From assembly GCA_014378915.1 (NCBI GenBank), contig JACMMS010000022.1, forward strand, positions 1 to 61,714: a DNA stretch of 61,714 nucleotides, given 5' to 3'. Of this stretch, positions 3,317 to 17,934 are shown in pieces. The notes beneath the pieces are model-generated. The model did not search any database, was not told the origin of the DNA, and saw nothing but the letters and a program-made list of their open reading frames with translations. How positions within the stretch are numbered: position 1 is the stretch's first letter; each line of letters begins with the position of its first letter. The translations under genes and the position numbers were made by a program. Source of the stretch: Methylophilaceae bacterium (lineage in GTDB: Bacteria > Pseudomonadota > Gammaproteobacteria > Burkholderiales > Methylophilaceae).

Positions 3317-3892
3317 TTAGATATTAAATATAGCCATTGCGGCAAACAACATACCGACACCAGCAACACCATAAACCGCATTTTTAAGCCATTTTCTTCG
3401 TGTAAGCAGAGAAATTGCGGCCAAAGATATAGCAATTTGCAATGCGGTCATCGCTGATGCCCAGCGATGATGTTGGTGCAATGTTTTTTCAGCTTTTAAT
3501 CCAAAATCGGTAGCTTGTGCAGTTAAAGTTTCCGCCTCTTTTTTGATTTGCTCTTTTTCTACTTGGTGTTTTGCAATGGCAGTTTGATACCTCTTGATAT
3601 CAACACCTGGAATAATAATCGCAAGCTCTTCTAAGTTTTGTTTACTTGATTTAGCTTGGTAAAAATTCCATTTATCAGAAGCTTCTGTAGTTCTAATAGC
3701 CTCATCGTTTTTATACATAGCCGCAACAGCTTGTGTATTTCCAGCTTCGTATCCAAACATAGCGCCAAGCGTTGCTAATATTGCTGTCACCACAGCAATA
3801 TTGCCCGCAAAATTATCATTCTTTTCGTGCTTTTCTATTGCTCGCTCCATTTCATCTTCATATATGCCATGCACTTCAAACTCTTCACCCAT
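3317..3892 (-). CDS. DUF4337-family membrane protein
   Basis: This 191-residue protein has an acidic N-terminus, a membrane segment at about 30-48 (AGNIAVVTAILATLGAMFGY), a long central charged helix rich in Lys, Glu and Gln (about 70-130, probably coiled coil), and two C-terminal membrane segments (about 143-162 and 171-189). The EGN-like motif YEAGNTQAVAAMYKNDEAI and the KWNFYQAKS box are those of DUF4337. The biochemical role is unknown. Its start is two bases after the kinase stop, so it is the third gene of the regulator-kinase operon and may be an accessory to sensing or a target product. Family assignment is fairly sure, function not. Confidence 0.8.
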   Translation of the reverse strand: MGEEFEVHGIYEDEMERAIEKHEKNDNFAGNIAVVTAILATLGAMFGYEAGNTQAVAAMYKNDEAIRTTEASDKWNFYQAKSSKQNLEELAIIIPGVDIKRYQTAIAKHQVEKEQIKKEAETLTAQATDFGLKAEKTLHQHHRWASAMTALQIAISLAAISLLTRRKWLKNAVYGVAGVGMLFAAMAIFNI

Positions 3893-3894
3893 AT

Positions 3895-5286
3895 TTACTC
3901 CTTAAAAAAAACACTGATTTTTGTACCCTCTTTGTCCTTATCACCACTCTCAATTGTGATTGTCGCATGATGTAAAGCCGTAATTTCTTTCACAATCGCT
4001 AAACCCAAGCCAGTACCAAAGTCTGTTGCTTCATTACCGCGATAAAAACGTTCGAATACCAGACCCTGCTCGCTCTTAGGAATACCTAACCCATTATCCT
4101 CAACTGTAAAACAGACACCGCCGTTTTGCATAAATACATTAAGCGTGACAGATCCACCATAAGGTGTGTAGCGAATAGCATTATCAATTAAGTTGTAAAT
4201 AAGGTTATGCAAGCCCAATTTTTCACCTGAAACTAGGCACTTTCTATCTTCACTTATACAAGACAATGTAATTTTTTTTGCACTTGCATTTAAATTAAAT
4301 TCGCAAGCAACCAATTTGACAAAACCAGCTAAATCAATCGGTTCAAAATCAAGTTGGTGAATAGCCTCTGGCTGGCTTTTTGCAAGAATGAGTAGCTGAT
4401 TAATTAAATGAATTAATCGTTCTGTGCTCAATGATATTTTTTGCAGCCTATTTTTAATATCAGGCAAACTTTTGGATTGATTAGCTAACTCTATTTGCGC
4501 GCGAGTTCCTGCTAAGGGCGTTCTTAGTTGATGTGCAGCATCCGCTAAGAAACGATTCTGGGAATGAATCGTTTGGTTAAGCTTCGCCATCAACTCGTTG
4601 ACTGAGTCAACTAATCTCGTAATCTCAATTGGAATATTGCTAATCTTAATCGGCTGTAAATCTGTGTATGAACGCTTGGCCAAAGCATCATTCACTTCCC
4701 ATAAAGGCTTTAAACCACTTTTAATGCCTATCCATAGTAAAACGCCAGCGGCAACAAACAATATTAATTGCGGTAGCAAAATCCAAGCGAGTATCTGTTG
4801 CCGAATATGTGTACGTTTATTAAGCGTTTCTGCCACCTGAATGTAAACATTGAGATGCTTGCCCGGTGCACCAATGGTTGCTGGCATAGAAATGATACGG
4901 ACTCTTTGATGATTAATTTCGCTAAAATAGTAAACAGTATTGGATTTTGCAAAAGATCCTTGCAGCTTTTTTCTATATTGAATACCTGGCTCACCAATTA
5001 AAGTCTGACCAAACTCATCTTTAACACTGTAAAAACCTTGGTCACTTGCATCAGCTAGTAAAGCTTTTTGTGTGTTTTGATCTAAAGGCACTAGTTTTTG
5101 TGCATTAAACCTCTCTAAAAACTCGTCAATATCATTAGCTGTTTGTAGCAAGCCATGATCAAATGTTTCACGCTCTACTTTGTTGGCAAAATGAAAGAGC
5201 AGGCTAGAGTCTAAAATGAGCAATGCCAACATTGGAATTAGCAGCCACTTCAGAAGTTGCCGACGGATTGAATACGGCTTTATCAT
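3895..5286 (-). CDS. Sensor histidine kinase, TctE/QseC type
   Basis: This 463-residue inner-membrane kinase has a membrane segment at about 12-33, a periplasmic sensor of the 2CSK_N type (about 35-160), a second membrane segment (about 165-188), and a HAMP-like linker. The HisKA box FLADAAHQLRTPLAG carries the phosphorylated His. The ATPase domain has NLIYNLIDNAIRYTP (N box), DNGLGIP (G1) and GTGLGLAIVKEI (G2). All catalytic boxes are present. The start overlaps the regulator stop by four bases, so the two are co-translated. TctE relatives sense small organic acids, but the ligand here cannot be read from the sequence. Likely target promoters carry the GTAAG boxes described separately. Confidence 0.92.
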   Translation of the reverse strand: MIKPYSIRRQLLKWLLIPMLALLILDSSLLFHFANKVERETFDHGLLQTANDIDEFLERFNAQKLVPLDQNTQKALLADASDQGFYSVKDEFGQTLIGEPGIQYRKKLQGSFAKSNTVYYFSEINHQRVRIISMPATIGAPGKHLNVYIQVAETLNKRTHIRQQILAWILLPQLILFVAAGVLLWIGIKSGLKPLWEVNDALAKRSYTDLQPIKISNIPIEITRLVDSVNELMAKLNQTIHSQNRFLADAAHQLRTPLAGTRAQIELANQSKSLPDIKNRLQKISLSTERLIHLINQLLILAKSQPEAIHQLDFEPIDLAGFVKLVACEFNLNASAKKITLSCISEDRKCLVSGEKLGLHNLIYNLIDNAIRYTPYGGSVTLNVFMQNGGVCFTVEDNGLGIPKSEQGLVFERFYRGNEATDFGTGLGLAIVKEITALHHATITIESGDKDKEGTKISVFFKE

Positions 5287-5954
5287 GTTTTAGCCATTTC
5301 TAAAATGTAACCTGAGCCGCTCATAGTGCGAATAGCGACGCCATATGGCTCTAGCTTTTTTCTAATACGATGAATGTAAACCTCAATCGCATTAATTCCC
5401 ACTCCTTCAGACCAATTACACAAATTCTCAATTAAAGCCTCTTTGCTAACAGCACGTCCTTCTCGTAACATTAACAGTTCTAATATACCGATTTCGCGTT
5501 TAGAAAATGCCAAGAAACCTCTACCTGCGCTAACTGTTCGATCTACTGCATTAAATGAAAGTGGTCCAAACTCAACCATGCTATGCACAGAGCGGTTTGA
5601 TCTTCTAATCAACGCTCTTAATCTGGCTTCAAGCTCGGGGAGTTTAAAAGGTTTTACTAGGTAATCATCAGCACCTAAATCTAGCGCTTTAATACGGCCG
5701 TCAATCGCTTCACGTGCGGAGATAATCAATACAGGAATAACTACTTTTCTTTGCCTAAGCTTACGCAGCACTTCTATACCGTCCATTTTTGGCAAGCTTA
5801 AGTCTAAAATAACCGCTTCATAAATTTGGTCATGTAAAGCTAAATCGGCATACTTTCCATCTTTTGCCCAATCTACTGCATAACCTGCATTTTTTAAAGA
5901 TTGATTCAGCGCATCACCTAAAACATCATCATCCTCAACTAGTAACACTCTCAT
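5283..5954 (-). CDS. OmpR-family response regulator (TctD/QseB type)
   Basis: This 223-residue regulator has a receiver domain (MRVLLVEDDDVLGDAL; acceptor Asp in AVILDLSLPKMDG; Lys in DYLVKPFKL) and a C-terminal winged helix (about 125-220) with SKREIGILELLMLREGRAVSKEAL and EVYIHRIRKKLEPYGV. It is intact, unlike the related pseudogene at 918-1549. AAGGAAAAG precedes the ATG at 5954. A large facing pair of direct-repeat boxes (5984-6025) lies 30 bases upstream, between this gene and the divergent desaturase, so it probably controls itself and the desaturase. Partner kinase follows with a four-base overlap. Confidence 0.93.
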   Translation of the reverse strand: MRVLLVEDDDVLGDALNQSLKNAGYAVDWAKDGKYADLALHDQIYEAVILDLSLPKMDGIEVLRKLRQRKVVIPVLIISAREAIDGRIKALDLGADDYLVKPFKLPELEARLRALIRRSNRSVHSMVEFGPLSFNAVDRTVSAGRGFLAFSKREIGILELLMLREGRAVSKEALIENLCNWSEGVGINAIEVYIHRIRKKLEPYGVAIRTMSGSGYILEMAKT

Positions 5955-5983
5955 ACTTTTCCTTAAAACATTAACGCAATTTT

Positions 5984-6025
5984 TGTAAGGTAAATGTAAG
6001 GCATCTGGCTTACATTTAGCTTACT
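5984..6025. promoter_or_regulatory. Double response-regulator operator between regulator and desaturase
   Basis: TGTAAG occurs at 5984-5989 and again at 5995-6000 (11-bp step). On the opposite strand the same pair is at 6009-6014 and 6020-6025 (AGTAAG for the outer one). GTAAGGTAAATGTAAG (5985-6000) and CTTACATTTAGCTTAC (6009-6024) form a 16-bp inverted repeat with one mismatch and an 8-base spacer. OmpR-family dimers bind such 11-bp-spaced direct repeats. Its place in the divergent gap suggests that it serves both genes; which regulator binds it is inference. Confidence 0.7.
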
Positions 6026-6031
6026 AAACTA

Positions 6032-6910
6032 ATGAATTCAATACTGATGAAAAAATCTCCGAGGTTCTTATTTGCTTACAGCTACTGGGATGTAATCCCA
6101 GCCGTTGCAGGTGTCTTACATGGTTTATACCTCATTATAATCCTGTTATTTTTCAAGCAATTACCTTTTTGGGCCAACTTGATACTGGGTTTTATTTACG
6201 CATTCAGTATTTCTTGGAACGTCAATGGTATTTCACATAACTTTATACACAATGCCTACTTCAAATCATTCTGGTTAAACCGACTATTCAGTTTACTAGA
6301 GTCAATGATCATGGGGTTTTCGCAAACCATGTATGAATATGTGCACAGACAACATCACATTGGTAACAATGACCGTTTAAATGAACAAGGCGAAACGATA
6401 GATTGGATTTCAATTTATGGGTTTGGCAAAAATGGCGAGCCTGAACACCCTATTAAATATGCGCTTCTTAGCTACTTTAGAGATGATCCTAAGCGCATAT
6501 ATGGCCTAATTCGCAAACACAGTTTATGGCTTGCCAATTTTGCAATATTTGAAGTAATTTTATCTTTCGGTTTCATCATAGGCTTATTTTTCATTAACTG
6601 GAAACTTGGCATTTACTATGTTTTTTTCTATTACCTAGGTCACTCGCTTTCAGCACTTAATGGCTATTACGAGCATTATGGCGCCAATCCAGATAAACCT
6701 ATTGCTTGGGCTGTGAGCTGCTACAACAAACTATTCAACATTCTGTGGTTTAAAAATGGCTACCACGCTGAGCATCATTATCGTCCAAAGCAACATTGGA
6801 CAAAAATGCACGAGCTACATGTAAAAATCAAAGATAATCAAATCAAAGAGGGTGTGAAGGTCATTAATTGGCCACATCAAATTGGATTTATGCAAAGTAA
6901 AACTAAATAA
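6032..6910 (+). CDS. Membrane fatty-acid desaturase-family protein
   Basis: This 292-residue membrane protein has the three histidine boxes of di-iron desaturases and hydroxylases: HNFIH (about 71-75), HRQHH (about 107-111) and HAEHH (about 248-252). Membrane segments lie at about 25-60 and 165-205. The family inserts a double bond or hydroxyl into acyl chains at the inner membrane; the substrate here is unknown. It could act on the product of the operon that follows at 6973, from which it is separated by only 62 bases that hold their own regulator box. ATG at 6032 lies seven bases after the operator, so the second ATG at 6047 (MKKSPRF) may be the true start. Confidence 0.82.
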   Translation: MNSILMKKSPRFLFAYSYWDVIPAVAGVLHGLYLIIILLFFKQLPFWANLILGFIYAFSISWNVNGISHNFIHNAYFKSFWLNRLFSLLESMIMGFSQTMYEYVHRQHHIGNNDRLNEQGETIDWISIYGFGKNGEPEHPIKYALLSYFRDDPKRIYGLIRKHSLWLANFAIFEVILSFGFIIGLFFINWKLGIYYVFFYYLGHSLSALNGYYEHYGANPDKPIAWAVSCYNKLFNILWFKNGYHAEHHYRPKQHWTKMHELHVKIKDNQIKEGVKVINWPHQIGFMQSKTK

Positions 6911-6916
6911 GTGCGA

Positions 6917-6957
6917 GTAAGTTTTTTGTAAGAAGTATTAGTTAAAATAAACATAAT
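6917..6957 (+). promoter_or_regulatory. Response-regulator box and -10 before the nine-gene operon
   Basis: GTAAG at 6917-6921 and 6928-6932 are separated by six T (11-bp step), matching the sites at 5984-6025 and 36649-36665. CATAAT at 6952-6957 could be the -10 element, 19 bases beyond the box, the spacing expected when an OmpR-type regulator replaces a -35. A clear AAAGGA ribosome site and the ATG at 6973 follow. This gives the operon a probable promoter under two-component control (inference). Confidence 0.55.
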
Positions 6958-6972
6958 AGCAAAAGGAAACAC

Positions 6973-7656
6973 ATGCTTTTTATAGTAGATTTTGATGGCA
7001 CAATTTCAGTAAAAGATACGATTGACGCCATGCTAGAAAAATTTGCCGATCCATCTTGGCAAGACATAGAGCAAGAGTGGTTGGATGGAAAAATTACCGC
7101 CGTTGAGTGTATGGCAAGGCAAATTGACATGGTAAAAGCCGACCATATGGCGCTTGAGAACTTCTTTCGAGGTATTCAACTTGATGCCAGTTTTTTACCG
7201 TTTTACAAACATGCAACGCAATTTGCAAAGCTAGTCATTGCCAGTGACGGTTTAGATCATGCCATTAAAGTAGCTATGCGCAATACTGGCTGGCCGGAAA
7301 TTCCTGTGTATTCGAACCACTTAAACTTTGTTCCGCAAGGCATCAAAATTACCTACCCTTTGCGCAAAGACGATTGTACTGGCGGTAATGGTATGTGTAA
7401 GTGTGCAGTAGCTAGAAGCTTATCGTTAGATGCATTAGGCCCGATTGTGCTAATTGGTGATGGCAAATCAGATGCTTGTATCTCAGGCATGGCTGATATC
7501 GTTTTTGCAAAGGGCTCACTAATTAAACATTGTGAAAGAAATCAAATTAAACACCATAAATTTCAAACCTTTGCCGACGTGCTCGCCATCATTAAACAAT
7601 GGCCGATTGAAAAACTATGGTTGAATGAAAAACAAAGCAGCATCAAATTAGCTTAA
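6973..7656 (+). CDS. HAD-superfamily phosphatase (MtnX/SerB-like)
   Basis: This 227-residue soluble protein opens with the HAD nucleophile motif IVDFDGTIS (Asp6, Asp8). It has a small alpha-helical cap, motif II in LVIASDGLD, and motif IV in LIGDGKSDAC. The layout is that of the HAD-IB phosphatases such as MtnX (2-hydroxy-3-keto-5-methylthiopentenyl-1-phosphate phosphatase) and SerB. A CTGGNGMCKC stretch before motif IV is Cys-rich. It is the first gene of a compact operon with an aminotransferase, arginase-fold enzyme, acyl carrier protein and ketosynthase, so a dephosphorylation step on a small amino-bearing precursor is likely (inference). Good AAAGGA ribosome site. Confidence 0.82.
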   Translation: MLFIVDFDGTISVKDTIDAMLEKFADPSWQDIEQEWLDGKITAVECMARQIDMVKADHMALENFFRGIQLDASFLPFYKHATQFAKLVIASDGLDHAIKVAMRNTGWPEIPVYSNHLNFVPQGIKITYPLRKDDCTGGNGMCKCAVARSLSLDALGPIVLIGDGKSDACISGMADIVFAKGSLIKHCERNQIKHHKFQTFADVLAIIKQWPIEKLWLNEKQSSIKLA

Positions 7657-7681
7657 TCAAAACTTTAAGACGGAAACCATT

Positions 7682-9055
7682 ATGGAAACGAAAATAATAG
7701 AAATTCTTAAAAAAAATGATAAGTATTGCTCACATGGCGATACTGTCAATTATGCAGACCCTCCAAAAGTGTTCGAGAGTTGTGACGGTAGCTTTTTATT
7801 TGATGAAAAAGGTATTGCCTATTTAGATTGGCAGATGTGGTATTCCGCTGTGAACTTTGGTTATAAAAACAAACGCATTGCGGATGTTTTGCATAAGCAA
7901 ATTGACACGCTTCCACAGCTTGCCAGCCAATATTTACATAAGGAAAAAGTAGATTTAGCTGAGATTATTTGCAAATACATGGAAGATAAATACGGCGTAA
8001 AAGGCCGTGTGCACTTCAATGTTGGCGGCGCCCAGGCTGTAGAGGATTCGCTCAAAGTAGTGCGTAACCATACAGGCAAAACCCACCAATTTGCCTTTAT
8101 GGGCGGTTACCACGGTCGCACTTTAGGTGCATCAGCTATCACATCTAGCTACCGTTATAGACGTCGCTTTGGTAACTTTGCAGATCGCGCAGAGTTTATT
8201 CCCTACCCTTATTGCTACCGCTGTCCTTATGATATGAAAGTCGAAACTTGCGATACCTATTGCCATAAACAATTTGAAAAGTTGTTTGAAACTGAATATC
8301 AATCAGTATGGGATACAAAAGCAAAAGAGTCTGAATTCGGCGCATTTTATATTGAGCCCATGCAAGGCACGGGTGGCTACATTATCCCGCCAGCTGGTTA
8401 CATGAAAAAACTACAAGAGTCACTTAAAAAACGTAATATTTTATTAGTGGCTGATGAAATTCAAATGGGTGTTTACCGTACAGGTAAATTATGGTCTTGG
8501 GAGAATTTCGATATCGTGCCTGATATTTTTGTATTTGGTAAAGCGATTACCAATGGCTTAAACCCTCTATCTGGCATTTGGGCACGTGAAGAACTTATTT
8601 CACCTGAAAAATTCCCACCTGGCTCAACGCATTCAACATTTGCTTCAAATCCACTAGGAACATCTGTGGCATTAGAGGTCATGAAAATGACGCAAGAAAG
8701 CAATTTTGAAGAACATGTGCGCGAACGTGGGGCATACTTTTTAAAACGTATTCAAGAACTTAAATCGCGCTGGAAAGTAGTAGGAGATGTAAGCGGCTTA
8801 GGTTTGGCGCTCCGCATTGAGCTATGTGAAAAAGATGGTTACACGGCTAGTCGAGCACTTGCAGATCGTATGTTTAATGAAGGCTTAAAAGGTGATTTAC
8901 TTGTTGGTGATAAAAATTATGGTCTAGTTTTAGATATTGGTGGTTATCAAAAGAATGTAATTACGCTCGCGCCATCATTATTAATTTCAGAAACAGAAAT
9001 TGATCTTGGTATTCATTTATTTGAGATGCTATTACGTAGATGTGAGGCTGAGTGA
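7682..9055 (+). CDS. Class III PLP-dependent aminotransferase
   Basis: This 457-residue enzyme belongs to the fold type I omega-aminotransferases (ornithine, GABA, lysine-6 and diaminobutyrate aminotransferase relatives). Visible elements: FNVGGAQAVEDS, the phosphate-binding GGYHGRTLGA (about 141-150), Asp258 in VADEIQMGVYRTG, and Lys287 in FGKAITNG as the PLP Schiff-base lysine. A Cys cluster (C178, C181, C190, C194) in the large domain resembles that of the archaeal-type ornithine/GABA group and could bind metal. It probably makes or uses a terminal amine for the product of this operon. Substrate is unknown. It starts 25 bases after the HAD gene with its own GGA ribosome site. Confidence 0.88.
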   Translation: METKIIEILKKNDKYCSHGDTVNYADPPKVFESCDGSFLFDEKGIAYLDWQMWYSAVNFGYKNKRIADVLHKQIDTLPQLASQYLHKEKVDLAEIICKYMEDKYGVKGRVHFNVGGAQAVEDSLKVVRNHTGKTHQFAFMGGYHGRTLGASAITSSYRYRRRFGNFADRAEFIPYPYCYRCPYDMKVETCDTYCHKQFEKLFETEYQSVWDTKAKESEFGAFYIEPMQGTGGYIIPPAGYMKKLQESLKKRNILLVADEIQMGVYRTGKLWSWENFDIVPDIFVFGKAITNGLNPLSGIWAREELISPEKFPPGSTHSTFASNPLGTSVALEVMKMTQESNFEEHVRERGAYFLKRIQELKSRWKVVGDVSGLGLALRIELCEKDGYTASRALADRMFNEGLKGDLLVGDKNYGLVLDIGGYQKNVITLAPSLLISETEIDLGIHLFEMLLRRCEAE

Positions 9056-9083
9056 GCCTAGTCCCTAGTGATATAAGATTTAA

Positions 9084-9971
9084 GTGATCACTCATATTAA
9101 CATTATTGATTTTGATGGCAGCATTACAGCCCAAAGCGAGTTTATTGCGCTGTTTAAGCCACGTATTAGCATCAGCAATTTAAGTCGATTTCAGCATGCC
9201 GCTCGCTTATGGACTAGCCCTAAAAAGTTTGCTGAGATTTGCAAAACAGCTTTTAATGGGCTTAAACCTGGGTTTACTTTAATCGGCTCCGGTGATTTTC
9301 ATCATTATTCTTTGGGTCTAATTAAACAATATAAAACGCCACTCACTATAGTGCTTTTCGACAATCATCCAGACTGGATGCAACCACCGCATCAATATCA
9401 TTGTGGCACTTGGGTATACAGTCTGGCACGCCTGCCTCAAGTGCAGCGTATTATTATTATCGGGCTTGAAAGTGGTGATATTAATGGCAAATGCTTTAAA
9501 AATGGAGATGTTGAAAGTTACCTGAATCAAAAAATTATCTTGCTGCCATATGAGCCTGTAATAGCAGAAGTGATAGGTTCCCAGACAACATCATTATATA
9601 GCCTATTAAAAAATGACTTGCAGGCGGGAATTGCAGAAATTATTAGCCATATTTCTACACAGCATGTCTACATCAGCATTGATAAAGATTGCCTGAGCAT
9701 TGAAGATGCTTTTACTAATTGGGAACAAGGTAGTTTGCCGCTATCAACAGTTATTGACACAATTATTGCGATTAAAAAGAAGTTTGAAATTGTAGGCGCA
9801 GATACCGTGGGTGATTACTCAACCCCTAGATTTCGCTCACCCCTGAAATGGATAGGTTCTTTACTGGATAGAAAAATATCAAGAAAACCTGACATCTCTA
9901 ATCGTTTTAAAAGTGAATTGAAGCGTAATGAATTGGCTAATATTTCACTTTTTAATGCATTGGATGGTTGA
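9084..9971 (+). CDS. Arginase/ureohydrolase-fold metal hydrolase
   Basis: This 295-residue protein keeps the manganese ligands of ureohydrolases in altered settings: GDFHH at 70-74 (for GGDHS), DNHPD at 93-97 (for DAHxD) and SIDKD at 199-203 (for SxDxD), with a Glu-containing tail (CLSIEDAF). Arginases, agmatinases and related amidinohydrolases cleave guanidino C-N bonds; distant members act on other amides. The altered flanks put it outside the classical arginase and agmatinase groups. The start is GTG at 9084, directly preceded by a TAA in frame, so no longer protein is possible; no clear ribosome site is seen. Substrate unknown. Confidence 0.75.
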   Translation: MITHINIIDFDGSITAQSEFIALFKPRISISNLSRFQHAARLWTSPKKFAEICKTAFNGLKPGFTLIGSGDFHHYSLGLIKQYKTPLTIVLFDNHPDWMQPPHQYHCGTWVYSLARLPQVQRIIIIGLESGDINGKCFKNGDVESYLNQKIILLPYEPVIAEVIGSQTTSLYSLLKNDLQAGIAEIISHISTQHVYISIDKDCLSIEDAFTNWEQGSLPLSTVIDTIIAIKKKFEIVGADTVGDYSTPRFRSPLKWIGSLLDRKISRKPDISNRFKSELKRNELANISLFNALDG

Positions 9972-10339
9972 TGCTTAAACCGTGGATTTTATTTGTAGTG
10001 GCCGTATTACTCGATACCCTAGGTACTGTGTTGTTTAAGCATGGTAGCAATCAACTTCCACAATCGAATCAGCTTGGCTGGCGTGGTCATGCAGAAAATA
10101 TTTTAGGCGCTCTAAAGCGCAAGGAAATCGCGTTAGGTGTGATTGTTTATATTGTTGAATATATTATCTGGATCGGCTTTCTTTCTACTATGACACTCAG
10201 TGCAGCATATCCATTATCAAGCGTCACTATCGTATTAATACTATTAGCCTCTTGGCTATTTTTGGGCGAAAAAATTGGTAAAAATCGCTGGCTTGGTGCT
10301 CTCCTCATTATCAGTGGCATGTTTTTAGTGGGGGGGTAA
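9971..10339 (+). CDS. SMR/EamA-like half-transporter 1 (four membrane helices)
   Basis: This protein of about 122 residues has four hydrophobic helices, with a first helix LFVVAVLLDTLGTVLFKHGS and a C-terminal pair containing AAYPLSSVTIVLILLASWLFLGE and RWLGALLIISGMFLVGG, the pattern of the small multidrug resistance and EamA-half proteins such as EmrE and ArnE/ArnF. Its ATG at 9971 overlaps the upstream TGA by one base; a TTG one codon earlier is less likely. With the second half-transporter at 14036, which closes the operon, it probably forms a heterodimer that moves or flips the product across the inner membrane (inference from ArnE/ArnF). Confidence 0.82.
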   Translation: MLKPWILFVVAVLLDTLGTVLFKHGSNQLPQSNQLGWRGHAENILGALKRKEIALGVIVYIVEYIIWIGFLSTMTLSAAYPLSSVTIVLILLASWLFLGEKIGKNRWLGALLIISGMFLVGG

Positions 10340-10344
10340 TTCTA

Positions 10345-11259
10345 ATGAAATTAAACTCAATGAATATTACTCAAATGCAGTTCACTGTTAATCAAGAAGA
10401 TCCCACCGTAAAAATTGATGCTTTACTGGGCCCCAACGGTTTTATAGAACGCAAAGGCAAATCAGCTGTTCTTTTAGTGCATGGTTTAACGGGCACCCCC
10501 GCAGAAATGAAGCATTTTGGTCGCGTACTTTCTAGAAAAGGTTTAACAGTGGCTTGTCCAGAGTTGGCAGGTCATTGTGCATCAATCAAAGCACTGCAAG
10601 CAACCAGTTGGAAAGATTGGTATCACTCAGTTGAAACTGCTTTTGATGCCTTAAATAGTGAATACGAACAAGTGTTCATTGCGGGTTTGTCTATGGGCGC
10701 CCTACTTGCATTGATGGTCGCAGCAAAAAGAAAATCAAAAGTAGCTGGCATTATTTTATTATCAAGCACTTTTTTTTATGACGGCTGGAATATGCCCCAG
10801 TTCCAGCAAAAAATCTTACTGCCGATTGTACTTTACACTCCCCTTAAATATTTTATCCATTGGGAAGAAACTGCACCCTATGGCATTAAGTGTGAAAGAA
10901 CCAGGGCGTTAGTTGCAGCAATACTAGATAACAAGGATGCAAAAACAGCCGATAAAATTGGATATTTCAAAACACCCGCAACTGTTATTTTAGAAAGCGT
11001 AAGGTTGATTAAGGCCGCCCGAAAATGCTTATCGGAAGTCACTTCCCCTGCTCTGATCGTGCATTCTACTGAAGATGACATGGCGAGCTTAAAAAATGCT
11101 TATTACGTTGAAAAAAACATAGCTTCTCAACATGTAGAAACGATGTACTTGGATGACACTTATCATGTTTTAACCCTAGACAAACGCAAAGACGATATTG
11201 CAAAACGAGTCGTTAAGTTTTGCGGAAATATTCCAACACTAGCGCTAACGCAAACATAA
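10345..11259 (+). CDS. Alpha/beta hydrolase (carboxylesterase/thioesterase-like)
   Basis: This 304-residue soluble protein has LLVHGLTGTPAEM (oxyanion region, about 43-55), the nucleophile elbow AGLSMGA with Ser116, the acid in ALIVHSTEDD (about 245-250) and the catalytic His in DTYHVL (about 270). This is the layout of Est30-type carboxylesterases. In an operon with an acyl carrier protein and ketosynthase it may release or edit an acyl chain from its carrier, or hydrolyse an ester in the product (inference). A run of seven G just before the start forms a strong ribosome site. It follows the SMR gene after five bases. Confidence 0.82.
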   Translation: MKLNSMNITQMQFTVNQEDPTVKIDALLGPNGFIERKGKSAVLLVHGLTGTPAEMKHFGRVLSRKGLTVACPELAGHCASIKALQATSWKDWYHSVETAFDALNSEYEQVFIAGLSMGALLALMVAAKRKSKVAGIILLSSTFFYDGWNMPQFQQKILLPIVLYTPLKYFIHWEETAPYGIKCERTRALVAAILDNKDAKTADKIGYFKTPATVILESVRLIKAARKCLSEVTSPALIVHSTEDDMASLKNAYYVEKNIASQHVETMYLDDTYHVLTLDKRKDDIAKRVVKFCGNIPTLALTQT

Positions 11260-11298
11260 TGCATTAATAAATTATTTGGCAACAACACAGGAAACACC

Positions 11299-11550
11299 AT
11301 GGAAGACACGTTCAGCATTGTGAAAGAAATGATTGCAAAGAAATTGGAAATTGAACCTGCAAGCATTCAATTAAATAGTAATTTAACTGATATTGGGTTA
11401 GATTCTTTAGACACTTTTGACATCATATTTGAAGCAGAAGATAAATTTGGTATCAAAATACCGAATGATCAAGTAAATGTGGTCACAATCAGTGATGTAG
11501 TCAACCTGTTTGATAGATTGTTACAAGAAAAAGCTAAAGTAAGTCTATGA
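11299..11550 (+). CDS. Acyl carrier protein, dedicated
   Basis: This 83-residue acidic protein has the phosphopantetheine site in IGLDSLDTFDIIF with Ser36, and ends in the usual helix (EDKFGIKIP, then SDVVNLFDRLL). Length and motif fit a discrete acyl carrier protein. It overlaps the following ketosynthase by four bases, so the two are almost certainly partners. It lies in a secondary-metabolite-like operon, not next to fabD/fabG/fabF, so it is not the housekeeping AcpP. An AACACAGGAAAC ribosome site precedes the ATG at 11299. Confidence 0.93.
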   Translation: MEDTFSIVKEMIAKKLEIEPASIQLNSNLTDIGLDSLDTFDIIFEAEDKFGIKIPNDQVNVVTISDVVNLFDRLLQEKAKVSL

Positions 11551-12809
11551 GTACAGCAGTCCTTCGCCGTGTTGTTATTACAGGGATAGGAGTTGTCTCT
11601 CCGCAAGGTAATACTCCTGTAGAGTTCTTCAATAACTTGCTGGCAGGTAATTCTGGAGTTAGTAGAATTAAGGCAAGCTTTGTAGATGCTTTAGAAACTA
11701 AAATTGCCGCACAAGCAGACTTTGATGGCACACAGTACTTCATAAAACAACAACTTGCATTATTAGATCGCGTTAGCCAATTTGCATTGTATTGCGCAGA
11801 ACAAGCAATACAGGATGCGCATTTAGTACTCTCAGAAGTTGAGCCTAGTCGCGTGGGTTGCTATATGGGCACAGGTATGGGCGGCGCAAGTGCCACGGAA
11901 GATGGTTATGATAGGTTGTTTAAACAAAAAGCAACCCGTCTAAAACCTTTTACTGTACTGATGGCAATGAATGGTGCAGCCGCTTCACAAATTGCCATGC
12001 AATACCATTTGCAAGGTCCAAATCTTACATTCACAACGGCTTGTTCCTCCTCAGCGATTGCGATTGGTGAGGCCGTTAGACAAATTCAGCATGGGTATTG
12101 CGATGTGATGATTGCGGGTGGTACAGAGGCCCTACTTACTTTTGGCACCATTAAAGCGTGGGAAGCATTGCGTACTTTAGCAAAGGAAGATGAGTTAAAC
12201 CTAGCTCATTCATGCAAGCCTTTTTCAGCTAATCGCACAGGCTTAGTATTGGGTGAAGGTGCCGCTGTGTTTGTTTTGGAAGAACTTACTTACGCACAAG
12301 CACGAGGTGCCAAAATTTATGCTGAAGTTTCCGGCTATGGCACAACCAACGACAGCACGCATATCACCCAACCTTCAGTAGATGGTCAAGCCAGAGCCAT
12401 GCAAGCTGCGCTAAACAACGCCAATTTAGTACCGCATCAAATAGGCTACATTAATGCGCATGGCACTGGCACCCAACTTAATGATGCCACTGAAACCGCA
12501 GCGATAAAACAAGTGTTTGGTGAGCACGCTAACAGTTTGTCAATAAGCTCAACGAAATCAATGCATGGACACTTAATGGGTGCAGCAGGTGCTGTAGAAC
12601 TTGTCGCAACAACATTGGCGTTAGTTAACAATCAATTGCCACCAACAATTAATTTACACGAGCCAGATCCAATGTGTGATTTAGATTATGTCGCTAACCA
12701 ATTCAAAAATGTAGATAACCTACAGCATGCTATGTCCAATTCATTTGCATTTGGCGGCACAAGCGGCGTACTGATTTTAAGTAAAGTGAATAATAGGAGT
12801 GCCTTTTAA
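11547..12809 (+). CDS. Beta-ketoacyl-ACP synthase II-like ketosynthase
   Basis: This 420-residue enzyme is a complete KAS II (FabF type). It has the nucleophile Cys166 in TTACSSSA, His305 in NAHGTGTQLND, Lys337 in SSTKSMHGH and His342 in GHLMGAAGAVE, giving the Cys-His-His set for decarboxylating condensation with malonyl-ACP. Start and stop overlap with its neighbours (four bases with the carrier protein, one base with the acyltransferase) point to a fixed complex. No reductase or dehydratase is in the operon, so either housekeeping Fab enzymes finish the cycle or the enzyme makes a single beta-keto extension. It is probably specialised, not housekeeping. Confidence 0.92.
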   Translation: MSTAVLRRVVITGIGVVSPQGNTPVEFFNNLLAGNSGVSRIKASFVDALETKIAAQADFDGTQYFIKQQLALLDRVSQFALYCAEQAIQDAHLVLSEVEPSRVGCYMGTGMGGASATEDGYDRLFKQKATRLKPFTVLMAMNGAAASQIAMQYHLQGPNLTFTTACSSSAIAIGEAVRQIQHGYCDVMIAGGTEALLTFGTIKAWEALRTLAKEDELNLAHSCKPFSANRTGLVLGEGAAVFVLEELTYAQARGAKIYAEVSGYGTTNDSTHITQPSVDGQARAMQAALNNANLVPHQIGYINAHGTGTQLNDATETAAIKQVFGEHANSLSISSTKSMHGHLMGAAGAVELVATTLALVNNQLPPTINLHEPDPMCDLDYVANQFKNVDNLQHAMSNSFAFGGTSGVLILSKVNNRSAF

Positions 12810-14029
12810 TGGATAAATTTATGACGCAAAGTCTAATGTACAACCAACCATTAGTATTGCCGCAAGCTACATATGAAGTGGCTAAGTATGTTGCAGAACG
12901 TAGTTTTAGCGCGGCAAAATATGAAGAAGTCTTGTGGGACAAATTACTACCTAATGATGCTGAGAGCTATCGCTATCACCTGGCTTTTGAAATCGGTAAA
13001 GTCGAAGGTTTCAAAACAGGTTACATAGCGGTTAAACGCAATAGTCTCGTTATATGTATCGCACCTTATTTCGTAATGGATTATCGCTTAGATACCACTG
13101 TACAAGGTGGATTAAAGCGCTTTTTGAACAAAATCACGCATTATGCACCCAAGCTGTTAAGCATTAAAATGGTGTGTGTTGGCTCACCTGTTACGGATAG
13201 TTGCAAAATCGGCTTAGCTAAAGACTACCCCTTTGATGCGGCCATGCTCAAGGCTTTATGCGATGAGTTGGAGCAGGTTGCAAAACGTGAAAAAGCCAGT
13301 GTCATCGCTTTTAAAGACGTCATGGACCATGATGCGCAATTATTCAGCGCAACCTTAAATGCAGCGGGATACGGAAAAGTGGCTAATATGCCAATTGCGA
13401 TTAACCTGATCCAATTTACCAATATCGATGAGTATTTCGCCACTTTAAGCTATACAACACGTAAAAACTTACGGCGCAAACTGAAGGCTAAAGCAAATAT
13501 TCACATAGAGGAATATGACGGTTTGCCACCTGACATAGAAAAGGTTTATCAACTATATTTAAACACTTACGAGCAAAGTGAGTTGAAGTTTGAAAAACTA
13601 ACATTAGAGTTTTTTGAATCAATTCCAGGCTTAATGCCTAATCACTGTCGTTTTGTGTTGTACTACGCAGAAAACCAGTTAATAGCCTTCAATTTATTAC
13701 TCCATCGCGATGGTATTTTGTTAGATAAATACATAGGCCTAGATAAAACGCTTGCAAAAAAATACAACATTTACTATCTAAGCTGGTTACATAATGTTGA
13801 AATGTGCATTCGTGATGGTTTTCATACCTACCAAAGTGGACAAGCTGCTTATGAAACTAAAATTCGCTTAGGTGCAACACTAGAGCAAACCTATATTTTC
13901 TTTAAACATTGCAATCCTCTGTGGAATAAGCCGCTTAAACTACTTTCACGTGCATTAGCCTATGCTAATTTTGATGATGCAGTTAAAGATAAGCCAACGA
14001 ACGCTAGATTAACTTCATACAAGCACTGA
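12809..14029 (+). CDS. GNAT/FemAB-like acyltransferase (Acetyltransf_6/BioF2-like)
   Basis: This 406-residue soluble protein carries a FemAB/GNAT-type domain in its C-terminal half (about 200-370). Typical features are SYTTRKNLRRKLKAK, the ENQLIAFNLLLHRDGILLDKYIG strands, and YYLSWLHNVEMCIRDGF followed by YQSGQAAYETK, as in the BioF2-like acetyltransferase group. Members transfer acyl or aminoacyl groups to amines. Directly downstream of an ACP and ketosynthase (TAATG overlap), it is the likely step that joins the ACP-borne acyl chain to the amine made by the aminotransferase (inference). The first 190 residues have no motif I recognise. Confidence 0.75.
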   Translation: MDKFMTQSLMYNQPLVLPQATYEVAKYVAERSFSAAKYEEVLWDKLLPNDAESYRYHLAFEIGKVEGFKTGYIAVKRNSLVICIAPYFVMDYRLDTTVQGGLKRFLNKITHYAPKLLSIKMVCVGSPVTDSCKIGLAKDYPFDAAMLKALCDELEQVAKREKASVIAFKDVMDHDAQLFSATLNAAGYGKVANMPIAINLIQFTNIDEYFATLSYTTRKNLRRKLKAKANIHIEEYDGLPPDIEKVYQLYLNTYEQSELKFEKLTLEFFESIPGLMPNHCRFVLYYAENQLIAFNLLLHRDGILLDKYIGLDKTLAKKYNIYYLSWLHNVEMCIRDGFHTYQSGQAAYETKIRLGATLEQTYIFFKHCNPLWNKPLKLLSRALAYANFDDAVKDKPTNARLTSYKH

Positions 14030-14035
14030 CAATCA

Positions 14036-14446
14036 ATGACTTTTGCATTCATAAAAAAAATGAATTGGGATATTGTGCTTATGTTTGCCGTATTGTTAAT
14101 TTGTGATACGGCAGCTCAGGTGTTTTTTAAAGTTGCCGCAGATAAAACTGGAGAAATCCCATTCTACAGCATACAAGCCCTTTCCACTTACTTACTCAAC
14201 TTAGTGCAAAACCCACAAATCATCATGGGGGTTATAGCTATTGTGATTGCATTTTTTACTTGGCTGGCGGTTATTGCTAAAATTGATCTTTCTAAAGCAC
14301 ATCTTATTACTTGCTTGGCTTACGGCACTGTACCGCTAAGCTCTATGTGGTTATTACATGAGACAGCGAGTGCAAAACAACTAATAGGTATATGTCTTAT
14401 TATTACAGGTGCTTTTATTGCATCTAAAAATGAAGCGAATAGCTGA
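14036..14446 (+). CDS. SMR/EamA-like half-transporter 2 (four membrane helices)
   Basis: This 136-residue protein has four hydrophobic segments, from DIVLMFAVLLICDTAAQVFFKVA to LIGICLIITGAFIASK, with the AHLITCLAYGTVPLSSMWLLHE third-helix pattern of EmrE/ArnE-type proteins. It differs from the first half-transporter at 9971 in loop lengths and sequence, so the pair is not a recent duplication. In the known ArnE/ArnF case, two unlike halves flip a lipid-linked amino sugar. Closing the operon six bases after the acyltransferase, it most likely forms the exporter or flippase of the product with its partner. Confidence 0.8.
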   Translation: MTFAFIKKMNWDIVLMFAVLLICDTAAQVFFKVAADKTGEIPFYSIQALSTYLLNLVQNPQIIMGVIAIVIAFFTWLAVIAKIDLSKAHLITCLAYGTVPLSSMWLLHETASAKQLIGICLIITGAFIASKNEANS

Positions 14447-14591
14447 AATAAATTTGTAAACTAGACAGCAAATTTTCAATATTATATTGCATTGTTTTAA
14501 GACATCATTTAAATCGTCCGGAGTAAAAACCAAAAAAATAACTTAAATCAATTAAACTAACAGATATTTCAATCTACTTAGCTAGTAAATA

Positions 14592-14876
14592 ATGAATTCA
14601 ATTTTAGATTTAAAAGACTCAATGGGTTTTATTGCCGCATTTTTAACAACTACTGCATTTGTGCCACAAGCCTATCACTCGTGGAAAACACGAGATTTAT
14701 CTGGTATATCTTTTCCTATGTACAGCTTGTTTACGCTTGGTGTTGCTGCATGGTTAATATATGGCTTAATGATAGATAGCCTACCTGTTATTGTGGCCAA
14801 TGCAATTACATTAATACTTTCCGCTGTAGTATTAGGCTTAAAAATAAAGCAAATCAAACAGTTAGATCAAAAATAA
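14592..14876 (+). CDS. SemiSWEET-type sugar transporter (PQ-loop)
   Basis: This 94-residue protein has three membrane helices and the PQ-loop AFVPQAYHSWKTRDLSGIS, followed by SFPMYSLFTLGVAAWLIYGL and a third helix with PVIVANAITLIL. Length and motif are those of bacterial SemiSWEETs, which dimerise to carry small sugars or other polar solutes by facilitated diffusion. It is separated from the lipid-like operon by 145 AT-rich bases with no visible terminator, and from the pqi operon by an inverted repeat. Substrate is not predictable. It is an isolated gene, and the ATG at 14592 gives the expected N-terminal helix. Confidence 0.88.
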   Translation: MNSILDLKDSMGFIAAFLTTTAFVPQAYHSWKTRDLSGISFPMYSLFTLGVAAWLIYGLMIDSLPVIVANAITLILSAVVLGLKIKQIKQLDQK

Positions 14877-14900
14877 TTTCTGTTTTTTACCGAACTTTAC

Positions 14901-14945
14901 AAAATTATTGATTAAATATTGTTATGATATTTAATCAATAATTTT
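14901..14945. promoter_or_regulatory. Perfect 18-bp inverted repeat before the pqi operon
   Basis: AAAATTATTGATTAAATA (14901-14918) and its exact reverse complement (14928-14945) flank a nine-base spacer, TTGTTATGA. A third copy of GATTAAATA follows at 14946-14954, so the last repeat ends two bases before the pqiA start at 14957. A site of this size on top of the start region is likely an operator for a dimeric repressor, or an RNA hairpin over the ribosome site. It is too AT-rich and has no T-run to be a classical terminator. Confidence 0.7.
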
Positions 14946-14956
14946 GATTAAATACT

Positions 14957-15568
14957 ATGCTGCCAGCACTATTAATCGCATGTAATCAATGTGACCTTTT
15001 ACAGTACGAGGTTAAACTGGTTGAGGGTGAAAAAGCTTGTTGTTCGCGTTGCAATGCCTTGTTATATAAAAATACAGCGCCGCATTACAATCAAGAAATC
15101 GCATTTACTGTCAGTGCAATTATCATGCTTATTATTGCGAATATGTTTCCAATCGCTACTATTATTGTACAAGGTCAAGTCATTGATGCCACACTGTTTG
15201 ACATCATTCAAACATTAGCTATGCAGCAGCAAAATTCACTTGCTCTGCTTGTGTTTATCACGCTGCTTTTAGCACCCACTGTAGAGCTTTTAGCGATGGC
15301 TTATTTGCTCATGCAGTTAAAATGGGGATGGCCAAAACATTATATAACACAAGCTTACCGATTACGTTTAAGCGTTAAAACCTGGGTATTAACTGATGTT
15401 TTTATGTTAGGCGTGCTAGTCGACTTAGTGAAATTAACCCCCATTGTGACCGTTAAAGTGGGTATCGCCGTGTGGGCACTGGGAGGATTAATTATTCTGT
15501 TAACCGCACTATCACAAGCTTTTGATACAAGAAAAATGTGGTCACAGATTGATTTTCACTCAACGTAA
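14957..15568 (+). CDS. pqiA: PqiA-like membrane protein, first half
   Basis: This 203-residue inner-membrane protein has an N-terminal zinc-ribbon-like pair (CNQCDLLQYEV and CCSRCNALLY), four membrane helices, and the family motif TAFMLGVLVDLVKL-like segment (TDVFMLGVLVDLVKLTP). In E. coli PqiA and YebS, two such modules form one protein of about 420 residues. Here they are separate overlapping genes. PqiA works with PqiB and PqiC to move phospholipids or other lipids between the membranes. First gene of a four-gene operon behind the inverted repeat at 14901-14945. Confidence 0.88.
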   Translation: MLPALLIACNQCDLLQYEVKLVEGEKACCSRCNALLYKNTAPHYNQEIAFTVSAIIMLIIANMFPIATIIVQGQVIDATLFDIIQTLAMQQQNSLALLVFITLLLAPTVELLAMAYLLMQLKWGWPKHYITQAYRLRLSVKTWVLTDVFMLGVLVDLVKLTPIVTVKVGIAVWALGGLIILLTALSQAFDTRKMWSQIDFHST

Positions 15569-16262
15569 CCAACCACCCTCGGCCAGATCTTTAGGTCTAG
15601 GTGGATGTGAGGTGTGCGGATTAGTATCGCGCTTACCTTCCGCTAATCCACCACTTAACTATTTGCAACTATGCGCACGTTGCCATAGCCCACTACACAG
15701 CCGAAAAAATAAAAGTTTATCTCGCAGTTGGGCATTGTTAGTCACGGCTTATCTGCTTTATATACCCGCTAATATGTTACCAATTATGGATACCAGCTCT
15801 TTATTTAACGCGCAACGCGACACTATCATGAGCGGTATTATTTACTTATGGCAAAGCGGTTCTTGGTCTTTGGCATTACTGGTATTTTTTGCCAGTATAG
15901 TGACGCCTCTTTTTAAGATGATTACACTCACTTTTTTGTTGTTATCAATACAGTTTAAAAATGCTTGGCACCCATTGCAGCGTACTAAACTGTATCGATT
16001 TTTACACAGCATAGGTCGTTGGTCTATGCTAGATATTTACATGGTGGCGATTTTAGTCACTTTAGTCCAAGTGAAATCCCTCACCGTGATTAAAGCTAGT
16101 CCAGGCGCGCTAGCCTTTGCTGCAGTGGTAGTATTAACCATGTTAGCGGTAGAAACTTTTGATCCACGGCTTCTATGGGATTCGGTTCTAGCCCAAAACA
16201 ATCAGCTGCAAAAAAAGTTCCATATAGATAATGAAAAAGCATTAAAGGAACAACATGAGTGA
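15522..16262 (+). CDS. pqiA: PqiA-like membrane protein, second half
   Basis: This protein of up to 246 residues is the second PqiA module: zinc-ribbon pairs CEVCGLV and CARCHSPLH, then four membrane helices with SWALLVTAYLLYIPANMLPIM, and the repeat of the family motif MLDIYMVAILVTLVQVK. The frame opens with TTG at 15522 and overlaps the first module by 47 bases. A later TTG at 15549 is an equally likely start, since the Cys motif begins only near 15606. Its stop overlaps the PqiB start by eight bases, so translation of the three genes is coupled. Confidence 0.85.
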   Translation: MIQEKCGHRLIFTQRNQPPSARSLGLGGCEVCGLVSRLPSANPPLNYLQLCARCHSPLHSRKNKSLSRSWALLVTAYLLYIPANMLPIMDTSSLFNAQRDTIMSGIIYLWQSGSWSLALLVFFASIVTPLFKMITLTFLLLSIQFKNAWHPLQRTKLYRFLHSIGRWSMLDIYMVAILVTLVQVKSLTVIKASPGALAFAAVVVLTMLAVETFDPRLLWDSVLAQNNQLQKKFHIDNEKALKEQHE

Positions 16263-17934
16263 TACACCACTTCCACCGTTAGAAAGCACATTACCAGAAC
16301 TGCCACAAAATAGCCAAATACCCAATTTAACTGTGCAACAACGTAGCTCTAGTGATGTGTCACTTATTTGGCTAATTCCACTGATTGCTATTTTAATTGG
16401 TCTATGGCTGGGTTTTCAGGCATTAACAGAGCGTGGCTCAACCATTACCATTACTTTTAAAACAGCTGAAGGTATCACTATTGGTACGCATATAAAATAT
16501 CGTAACGTCGATGTAGGTGAAGTCAAAAGTATCACCTTAAGTGAAGACCATAGCCAAGTAGAGGTAACCGCAAAGCTTGCTAAACAAGCTAAAAATATGC
16601 TGGTGAAAGATGCACGTTTTTGGGTAGTTAGACCTAGAATTTCTGGTGGTAGTGTAAGTGGTTTAGGCACTGTATTAGCCGGCGCGCACATTGGTATGGA
16701 TGCAGGAAAGTCCACAGATTCTGCACGAGAGTTTGTTGGCTTGGAAAGGCCGCCAATTGTCACAAGCGATGTTCCTGGTCACCAATACACGCTGCTTAGC
16801 GATGATATAGGATCATTAGATATTGGTTCTCCCGTGTATTTTCGCCATATACAGGCAGGCCAAGTAGTAGCGTTTGAGCTTAGCCCAAGTGGCAAACAAG
16901 TGATTGTAACTGTTTTTGTTAATACGCCTTACGACCGCTTTATTAATACTAATACACGCTTTTGGCACGCCAAAGGACTTGATATTAAGCTTGATAGTAA
17001 CGGTATAAAAATTAACACTGAGTCATTAGTTTCTATCTTGCTAGGCGGTGTTGCTTTTGAGAATATTGGCGATACTGAGCAACTGGCGCAGGCCCCAGAA
17101 AATACAGCATTCAGAGCATTTAGTAATCAAGATGAGGCGCTAAAAGTACCTGATATTAATATTTTACATGGTGTAATGGTATTTCAGGAGTCAGTACGTG
17201 GCTTATCACCTGGTGCGCAAATTGACTTCCGTGGCATTGTCATTGGTGAAGTGATATCAAATAGTATAGATTTTGATGTATCCACTAAAAAAATCAATGT
17301 GGTTGTGGCGGTAGACATTTATCCTGATCGCCTGCGCTCAAAAATCAGTAATACGCATCAGGCTAAGCAACTACCTTCTAACGAGTTACTTAGTGCATTG
17401 TTCAATAGAGGTTTGCGTGGACAATTACGCACTAGTAATCTACTCACAGGACAGCTATATATCGCTTTAGACTTTTTCCCTAATCTGCCAAAATCCTCGT
17501 TTAACACGAATAAAACACCTTTTGAAGTGCCTACAACACCGGGCAGCTTAGGCGAGTTACAAGTCAATTTAGCTTCAATTGCTAATAAGATAAATAAAGT
17601 TCCTTTTGAGGCGATAGGTAACGACTTGCATACAATCTTAAATAATGCAAATAGCTTAATCACTCAGCTAGATCAACAAATCGCACCAGATACACGTGAA
17701 ACCCTATCGGATTTACGTAGCACATTGGCTGAAGCAAAAACTGCAATTGCTGCAGCACAAGGCTCGTTAACAGCTATTGAAAATAGCGTAGGTACTGATG
17801 GTCAACTGCAACAAGACGCTCATCAAACCTTGCTTGAAGTCACCCGTGCAGCACAATCTACCCGTGCTTTAGTCGATTACTTAGAGCGACATCCTGAAGC
17901 GCTCATCAGCGGTAAGAAAGAAGATAGCGAATGA
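16255..17934 (+). CDS. pqiB: PqiB: MCE-domain intermembrane lipid transport protein
   Basis: This 559-residue protein has one N-terminal membrane helix (about 38-58, LIWLIPLIAILIGLWLGF) and then three MCE (MlaD) domains, at about 60-150, 175-265 and 295-400. Each has the strand pattern TITFKTAEGITIGTHIKYRNVDVGEV or similar. A C-terminal helical region (about 440-545) follows, which in PqiB forms the tunnel needle across the periplasm. The length matches E. coli PqiB (546). It takes lipid between inner-membrane PqiA and outer-membrane PqiC. The start is the ATG at 16255 within the stop region of the second pqiA module. Confidence 0.92.
   Translation: MSDTPLPPLESTLPELPQNSQIPNLTVQQRSSSDVSLIWLIPLIAILIGLWLGFQALTERGSTITITFKTAEGITIGTHIKYRNVDVGEVKSITLSEDHSQVEVTAKLAKQAKNMLVKDARFWVVRPRISGGSVSGLGTVLAGAHIGMDAGKSTDSAREFVGLERPPIVTSDVPGHQYTLLSDDIGSLDIGSPVYFRHIQAGQVVAFELSPSGKQVIVTVFVNTPYDRFINTNTRFWHAKGLDIKLDSNGIKINTESLVSILLGGVAFENIGDTEQLAQAPENTAFRAFSNQDEALKVPDINILHGVMVFQESVRGLSPGAQIDFRGIVIGEVISNSIDFDVSTKKINVVVAVDIYPDRLRSKISNTHQAKQLPSNELLSALFNRGLRGQLRTSNLLTGQLYIALDFFPNLPKSSFNTNKTPFEVPTTPGSLGELQVNLASIANKINKVPFEAIGNDLHTILNNANSLITQLDQQIAPDTRETLSDLRSTLAEAKTAIAAAQGSLTAIENSVGTDGQLQQDAHQTLLEVTRAAQSTRALVDYLERHPEALISGKKEDSE

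Follow-up and report, generated by a model that had tools for sequence, protein, structure and literature searches.

A widely shared gene module in a Methylophilaceae bacterium, possibly for the synthesis and export of an acylated, amine-bearing lipid or amide

The DNA studied here (the window) is a stretch of 61,714 nucleotides from a Methylophilaceae bacterium (assembly GCA_014378915.1, contig JACMMS010000022.1), in which the listing of open reading frames places ten plus-strand genes at positions 6032-14446. These ten genes are part of a real, widely shared module, of which the set and not the order persists. We propose, with a probability of roughly 0.45, that the module serves the regulated biosynthesis and export of an acylated, amine-bearing lipid or amide, most likely a lipid, whose substrates we infer throughout. 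Directly established are the gene set, the catalytic residues, the predicted folds of two enzymes, the acidic membrane residues of the transporter pair and the linkage across lineages. An earlier examination of the letters alone (the sequence-only reading) had described ten close-packed genes of the families named below with all checkable catalytic residues in place; coordinates and Pfam and NCBIfam matches agree with this, and the residues proved to be conserved across relatives as well. According to the coordinates, the gene of a desaturase is followed at 62 nt by the remaining nine, which are separated in turn by 25 and 28 nt, an overlap of 4, gaps of 5 and 39, overlaps of 4 and 1, and a gap of 6 nt.

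The gene for an arginase-like protein was taken as the marker of the module. A profile search with this protein, using one genome per species, gave 594 matched stretches of which 585 were confirmed, so that at least 585 exist. The best 80 of these were read as loci and belong to Methylotenera, Methylophilus, Pseudomonas, Labrys, Bosea, Aureimonas, Agrobacterium, Caulobacter, Rhodanobacteraceae and others, including Omnitrophota and Phycisphaerales, where each label comes from one metagenome-assembled contig. Counts were made on the 53 loci with 8 kb present on both sides, the 27 with short flanks being left out; they therefore lean towards close relatives, and 27 of the 53 are from Pseudomonas. 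Within 8 kb of the arginase-like gene, a FemAB-like acyltransferase gene was found in 53/53 loci, an alpha/beta hydrolase in 51, two halves of a small multidrug resistance (SMR) type transporter in 50, and a HAD phosphatase and a class III pyridoxal phosphate (PLP) enzyme in 49 each, any class III match at E <=1e-4 being accepted. All four core enzymes (FemAB, HAD, class III, hydrolase) are present in 48 of the 53, namely in 27/27 Pseudomonas loci and 21/26 of the others, and 47 of these 48 complete loci hold two SMR halves. Among the five incomplete loci, L026 is without HAD, L046 without the class III enzyme, L064 without either within 8 kb, and L049 and L068 are without HAD, class III enzyme and hydrolase over the same distance. 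Open reading frames in the relatives were called mechanically, and some starts are wrong and some frames spurious.

The sequence-only reading had named a conserved order in several genomes as support. Such an order exists from the HAD gene to the second SMR half in the sister Methylophilaceae loci (L014, L127, L128, L129, L135, L136) and is thus not confined to this strain; outside the family it is scrambled between lineages, and the set persists. The same set in scrambled order occurs in the window's own order and class (L132, L133, L156, L157, L159). Since the order is rearranged between lineages, the linkage looks maintained by selection or joint transfer rather than solely by recent descent. 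A speciality of methylotrophs, as had been suggested, is not what we found: the distribution within Methylophilaceae is patchy, with the arginase-like gene in 10/187 genomes and 6/24 genera, and many of the best 80 loci are from Pseudomonas or Alphaproteobacteria.

Sampling by genome gave the same association. In 150 genomes of the window's order, 5/5 carriers of the arginase-like gene also hold FemAB (E <1e-50), and some FemAB carriers are without the arginase-like gene. As a control, 398 genomes were drawn evenly from the phylum (arginase-like E <=1e-10, FemAB E <=1e-20), with at most 5 or 4 candidates scored per genome, so that absences are no proof. The arginase-like gene was detected in 16 of them and the FemAB type in 24, and all 16 lie within the 24 (hypergeometric 5e-23, kinship ignored). 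Both genes are at most 6 kb apart in 15 of the 16 genomes and at most 150 bases apart in 10; in the sixteenth, G520, they are located on separate contigs, and the arginase-like match in G481, another of the 16, has an internal stop. Mantel tests on 38 non-redundant rows (25 to 34 per pair, species kinship uncorrected) revealed correlated gene distances among arginase-like gene, FemAB, hydrolase and HAD (r 0.73-0.89), the highest value being that of FemAB against the arginase-like gene (0.89). On the 53-locus linkage, the distance correlations and the evenly drawn genomes, chance clustering was rejected.

The marker itself (9084..9971, +) matches Pfam Arginase at 2e-8, as do 32/32 aligned members of its family at that model, and its predicted structure (pLDDT 93.9) has the ureohydrolase fold, with Z of about 21-22 to arginases, guanidinase, agmatinase and formimidoylglutamase. 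Residues were counted in 81 sequences at positions set by E. coli SpeB, a comparison that rests on MAFFT, as hhalign of the family against SpeB aligned one column. The residue counts given below for HAD phosphatase, class III enzyme, alpha/beta hydrolase, acyl carrier protein, ketosynthase, desaturase and SMR halves include some genomes twice (e.g. L011/L135, L012/L136, L014/L129). The positions of H126, D149, H151, D153, D230 and D232, which we take to be the ligands of the binuclear metal centre, are kept in 81/81 sequences, so that both fold and metal site resemble agmatinase and arginase. The difference is a cysteine, Cys107, which replaces SpeB His163 in 81/81, presumably the catalytic histidine and equivalent to arginase H141; in addition, identity in the structure alignments is low (12-20%). 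A cysteine at this site need not abolish turnover, as rat arginase H141C was crystallised with products according to the title of PDB entry 1hqg. Opposite SpeB E274, presumably the guanidinium-binding glutamate, MAFFT places position 244 (Glu in 56, Asp in 25 of 81), whereas HMMER against formimidoylglutamase sets Gly243 opposite the glutamate, so the register is uncertain here.

The two SMR/EamA halves lie at 9971..10339 (+; EamA and Multi_Drug_Res matches) and 14036..14446 (+; EamA match). For the first, the ATG at 9971 was taken as start, one codon past the listed TTG, and 9968 is also possible. Both halves have aspartate at the position of EmrE Glu14, which lies in the first membrane helix, and this position is acidic in 113/120 SMR halves near the module (72 Asp, 41 Glu). 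A retained acid at this site would mark a proton-coupled or cation-binding pair and hence an amine-bearing cargo; the sequences thus suggest that the pair carries cationic cargo. The pair resembles ArnE/ArnF in that its two halves, of SMR size and unlike each other, share an operon with an amine-making enzyme, and ArnF gives the best NCBIfam scores of the halves, below cut-off. However, this position is Ser in E. coli ArnE and Ala in E. coli ArnF, against Asp or Glu in 113/120 halves of the module, and the retained acid argues against a simple ArnE/ArnF-type membership.

The FemAB-like protein (12809..14029, +) is a core member and matches FemAB_like PF04339 (3e-16) and Acetyltransf_6 PF13480. 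Its model (pLDDT 90.9) is a tandem GNAT with FemX and Sbb17/Sba18 as nearest structures (Z 20.6-22.4), followed by MprF domains (Z 17-19) and N-myristoyltransferases (Z about 16). With FemX, Sbb17 and MprF the predicted likeness lies in the tandem-GNAT fold; the difference is an identity of 8-17% in structure alignments and, for the window protein, the lack of the MprF membrane domain. Since N-myristoyltransferases, which use acyl-CoA, align too, the fold is compatible with an acyl as well as an aminoacyl donor. Acylation from acyl carrier protein (ACP), as put forward in the sequence-only reading, thus fits the fold, and aminoacyl-tRNA fits it as well. The OlsB domain PF13444 is absent, at E <=0.01, from the matches of all 36 FemAB proteins in the alignment, that of the window among them, and the window protein had no NCBIfam match at this threshold, hence none to the FemAB model that NCBIfam presumably curates for the XrtA/PEP-CTERM (exosortase) group. 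A PDB sequence search with it gave one match only, at E 0.74.

Three further genes of the window point to a fatty chain. The ACP (11299..11550, +; PP-binding 1e-12) has the attachment site Ser36, conserved in 27/27, and the beta-ketoacyl-ACP synthase (KAS) of FabF/KAS II type (11547..12809, +; ketoacyl-synt 1e-50) has the triad Cys166/His305/His342, conserved in 30/31 with one gap. The desaturase or hydroxylase of membrane fatty-acid type (6032..6910, +; FA_desaturase 1.3e-25) shows the histidine boxes HNFIH, HRQHH and HAEHH, all three in 33/33 relatives, and a PDB sequence search with it gave no match. In one Methylotenera locus (L012:6052-7777) the desaturase gene is doubled in tandem. The same genome as the window holds separate housekeeping fabF and ACP genes in a fatty-acid synthesis locus and a third ACP and KAS pair beside a type III polyketide synthase-like protein. 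Compared with the window KAS, the housekeeping FabF shows 40% identity and the third KAS 50%, against 70% for the counterpart in a sister module (L120); a dedicated KAS within family and order is supported by these comparisons. The module sequences split into two groups in the KAS tree, and the window's side also takes in the third KAS and a very long FabF branch, so that the tree falls short of demonstrating a single origin of all module KAS. The locus of the third pair (L099:686-5455, contig C47) also encodes a FAD oxidoreductase and a methyltransferase-looking protein without Pfam match, and probably represents a second specialised lipid or polyketide locus.

The remaining core enzymes are well preserved. 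The HAD-IB phosphatase (6973..7656, +) is MtnX-like, with NCBIfam TIGR01489 above its cut-off and Pfam HAD at 24.6 bits under a cut-off of 27, and its Asp6, Asp8 and Asp163 are each kept in 75/76. In the class III PLP enzyme (7682..9055, +; Aminotran_3 9e-74), Lys287 is present in 81/84 relatives, the other three having gaps. Its closest solved relatives include aminotransferases and amino-acid racemases, and it may be an aminotransferase, as assigned by the sequence-only reading, or a racemase. The alpha/beta hydrolase (10345..11259, +; Hydrolase_4 1e-23) has as its nearest proteins of solved structure a lipase, monoacylglycerol lipases and carboxylesterases of the Est30 type; its Ser116 is found in 79/86 (Cys in 7), and both candidate aspartates and His274 in 86/86.

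From these elements the following pathway can be proposed. The class III enzyme and the phosphatase would prepare a small amine or amino alcohol; in the window's genome the dedicated ACP and KAS II may help to build a chain, which the desaturase would modify and FemAB would join to the amine via an amide bond. The ureohydrolase-fold enzyme could then remove a guanidino, amidino or similar cap and expose a cationic amine, the hydrolase could trim or recycle an ester-linked chain, and the SMR halves with their membrane acids would carry the product, now cationic, through the inner membrane, with a two-component system in control. N-acylation, the lipid nature of the product and its flipping are the parts that we infer. 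A lipid-type product is indicated by the desaturase, the ACP and KAS, the monoacylglycerol-lipase-like hydrolase, and the DevBCA-like exporters and cyclopropane synthase encoded nearby in relatives. The linkage of the set, the conserved residues and the cation-type SMR pair agree with the view of the sequence-only reading that the genes form one functional module with lipid-type enzymes.

Several observations weigh against this proposal. The desaturase, ACP and KAS genes, which had been counted as part of the set and are present in the window, occur in only 21, 6 and 7 of the 53 relatives, so that one cannot safely extend the acyl part to the core, which may work without fatty chains. By its model, FemAB is closest to aminoacyl-tRNA enzymes. 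Of the 48 complete loci, 41 hold a class III enzyme of the same type as the window's (E <1e-100) and the other 7 only a distant relative (E 1e-10 to 1e-14), and class III distances follow those of the other genes weakly (Mantel r 0.14-0.26). Parts of the set also occur by themselves: L120, another Methylophilaceae locus, lacks both the arginase-like gene and the SMR pair over 18 kb, with HAD, class III enzyme, hydrolase, ACP, KAS and FemAB present; L034, L038, L049 and L068 show desaturase, arginase-like gene and FemAB only (L034 and L038 with short flanks), L158 shows FemAB, arginase-like gene and SMR pair only, and 8/24 FemAB carriers of the even sample are without an arginase-like match. 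Furthermore, the locus has no second O-acyltransferase of the ornithine-lipid kind, and the DevC and DevA model matches in the loci with putative exporters (L007, L125) are below cut-off.

An alternative which we consider unlikely, and which is nevertheless the most serious one, is an aminoacyl-tRNA-dependent route in the manner of FemX or MprF. FemAB would then attach the amino acid of an aminoacyl-tRNA to a small acceptor or a lipid, the ureohydrolase would edit the attached residue (e.g. arginyl to ornithyl), and the resulting aminoacyl lipid or peptide, which is cationic, would be exported by the SMR pair. The nearest structures of the FemAB model argue for it, as do the close spacing and high distance correlation of FemAB and arginase-like gene and a match to the Pfam FemAB family in 1/36 FemAB members (E 0.003). 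Against it stand the alignment with acyl-CoA-using N-myristoyltransferases, the dedicated ACP and KAS beside FemAB, which suit acyl-ACP better, and the phosphatase and class III enzyme, for which such a route has no obvious need. Both this route and the acyl-amine pathway predict a cationic, envelope-directed product.

A non-lipid product, that is a diffusible amine, polyamine derivative or short amide acting as signal, osmolyte or antibiotic, could likewise leave through an SMR pair with an EmrE-type acid, and ureohydrolases usually act on small, soluble guanidino compounds. KAS and ACP, absent in most of the 53 relatives, and the desaturase, absent in over half, would then be side recruitments in some lineages; the very recurrence of these lipid enzymes, together with the DevBCA-like exporters, makes this explanation rather improbable. 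Highly improbable is an Arn-like modification of an envelope sugar or lipid A, with an ArnE/ArnF-like pair as the flippase for a group that has been aminated, capped and decapped. It can draw on the ArnF scores, on two-component control and on DegT/PseC-like aminotransferase genes near the module in the distant lineages of L025, L031 (11836-13053), L059, L125 and L131, and likewise in L156 and L157, judged from a similar start of the protein. However, the ten window genes include no glycosyltransferase or ArnT-like gene, no ArnA/ArnC/ArnT-type family is among the Pfam and NCBIfam matches listed for their products, and the membrane acid kept here is absent in ArnE/ArnF.

The logic of amine, chain and export in the acyl-amine pathway is known; what sets the module apart is its acyltransferase family, its ureohydrolase-fold enzyme and its SMR pair. 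FeeM has a GNAT-like fold and a dedicated ACP alongside. To our knowledge, a class III enzyme, a ureohydrolase-fold protein and an SMR pair are no part of that N-acyl amino acid system. Enzymes placing an acyl-ACP chain on an amine are known for N-acyl amino acids, and the likeness to our proposal lies there, as far as the part of the source considered goes (PMC4897644). In aminolipid synthesis by OlsB/OlsA, GlsB and GluB, an acyl-ACP chain is likewise placed on an amine, giving an amino-lipid, and OlsB is a PF13444 protein, as stated in the part considered (PMC11631085); the proposed acyl-ACP-plus-amine logic would be shared. The difference is that the window FemAB is without PF13444 and that the ten genes include no PlsC-like partner corresponding to OlsA. 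The main text of that paper nowhere mentions arginase, aminotransferase, flippase or FemAB. Methylotenera lipids are the subject of a further paper, which covers quinones and hopanoids and, in the part considered, nothing on the locus (PMC11844350). A literature search of open-licence papers, judged mainly by titles and the beginnings of abstracts, revealed no paper describing the gene set, in line with the sequence-only reading, which knew of no such pathway.

Taken further, and tentatively, the module may represent a pathway that has so far gone undescribed and was probably shared by horizontal transfer; it would be present in Pseudomonas, Alphaproteobacteria, Methylophilaceae and their order, with parts of it in Rhodanobacteraceae. 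Its product would be an acyl-amine or aminoacyl lipid of a new, cationic class, decapped by a Cys-variant ureohydrolase and flipped by an acid-bearing heterodimeric SMR pair, with a local two-component system switching the pathway on. The set survives rearrangement across Alpha-, Beta- and Gammaproteobacteria, including tractable hosts such as Pseudomonas protegens, which makes it a strong candidate source of an envelope lipid or amide that is common yet so far overlooked. A function would thereby be assigned to the Cys-variant ureohydrolase family and to an SMR pair with a probable physiological cargo.

The probable regulators are an OmpR-type response regulator (5283..5954, -) and a sensor histidine kinase with a 2CSK_N sensor domain (3895..5286, -), both facing the operon. 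A response regulator was found within 8 kb in 41/53 relatives and a histidine kinase in 35/53. In the window the two-component system adjoins a DUF4337 protein gene (3320-3892, -). A scan for promoter and terminator signals was uninformative (21 promoter-like and 3 terminator-like sites, where 28.7 and 7.3 were expected). No Rfam family, guanidine riboswitches included, reached its gathering score in window positions 5000-16500, and a guanidine-riboswitch-controlled SMR/hydrolase locus was rejected on this basis. A defence system was rejected as well, as PADLOC gave no match for the four of the ten proteins scanned.

Some observations concern the surroundings of the module in other genomes. 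The reduced locus L158 (genome G560, probably Pseudomonas, contig C22) is a second, smaller one, and another FemAB of this genome is encoded on contig C52. In L070:1108-4392, labelled Phycisphaerales, genes that by eye encode a probable AMP-forming acyl ligase and an SGNH-like hydrolase stand between a class III gene and the FemAB and arginase-like genes, which would hint at an acyl-adenylate donor. DevBCA-like ABC exporter genes adjoin the module in L007:12851-17002, together with a NodT/TolC-type outer-membrane protein gene, and in L125:15416-17285. A cyclopropane fatty acid synthase gene is located near it in Caulobacter OR37 (L041:2259-3503, -) and Labrys (L015:16881-18140, +). Downstream of the locus in the window itself, positions 14592-17934 (+) encode a PQ-loop/SemiSWEET protein, two PqiA and an MlaD-domain PqiB-like protein, that is, lipid transport genes of the MCE type.

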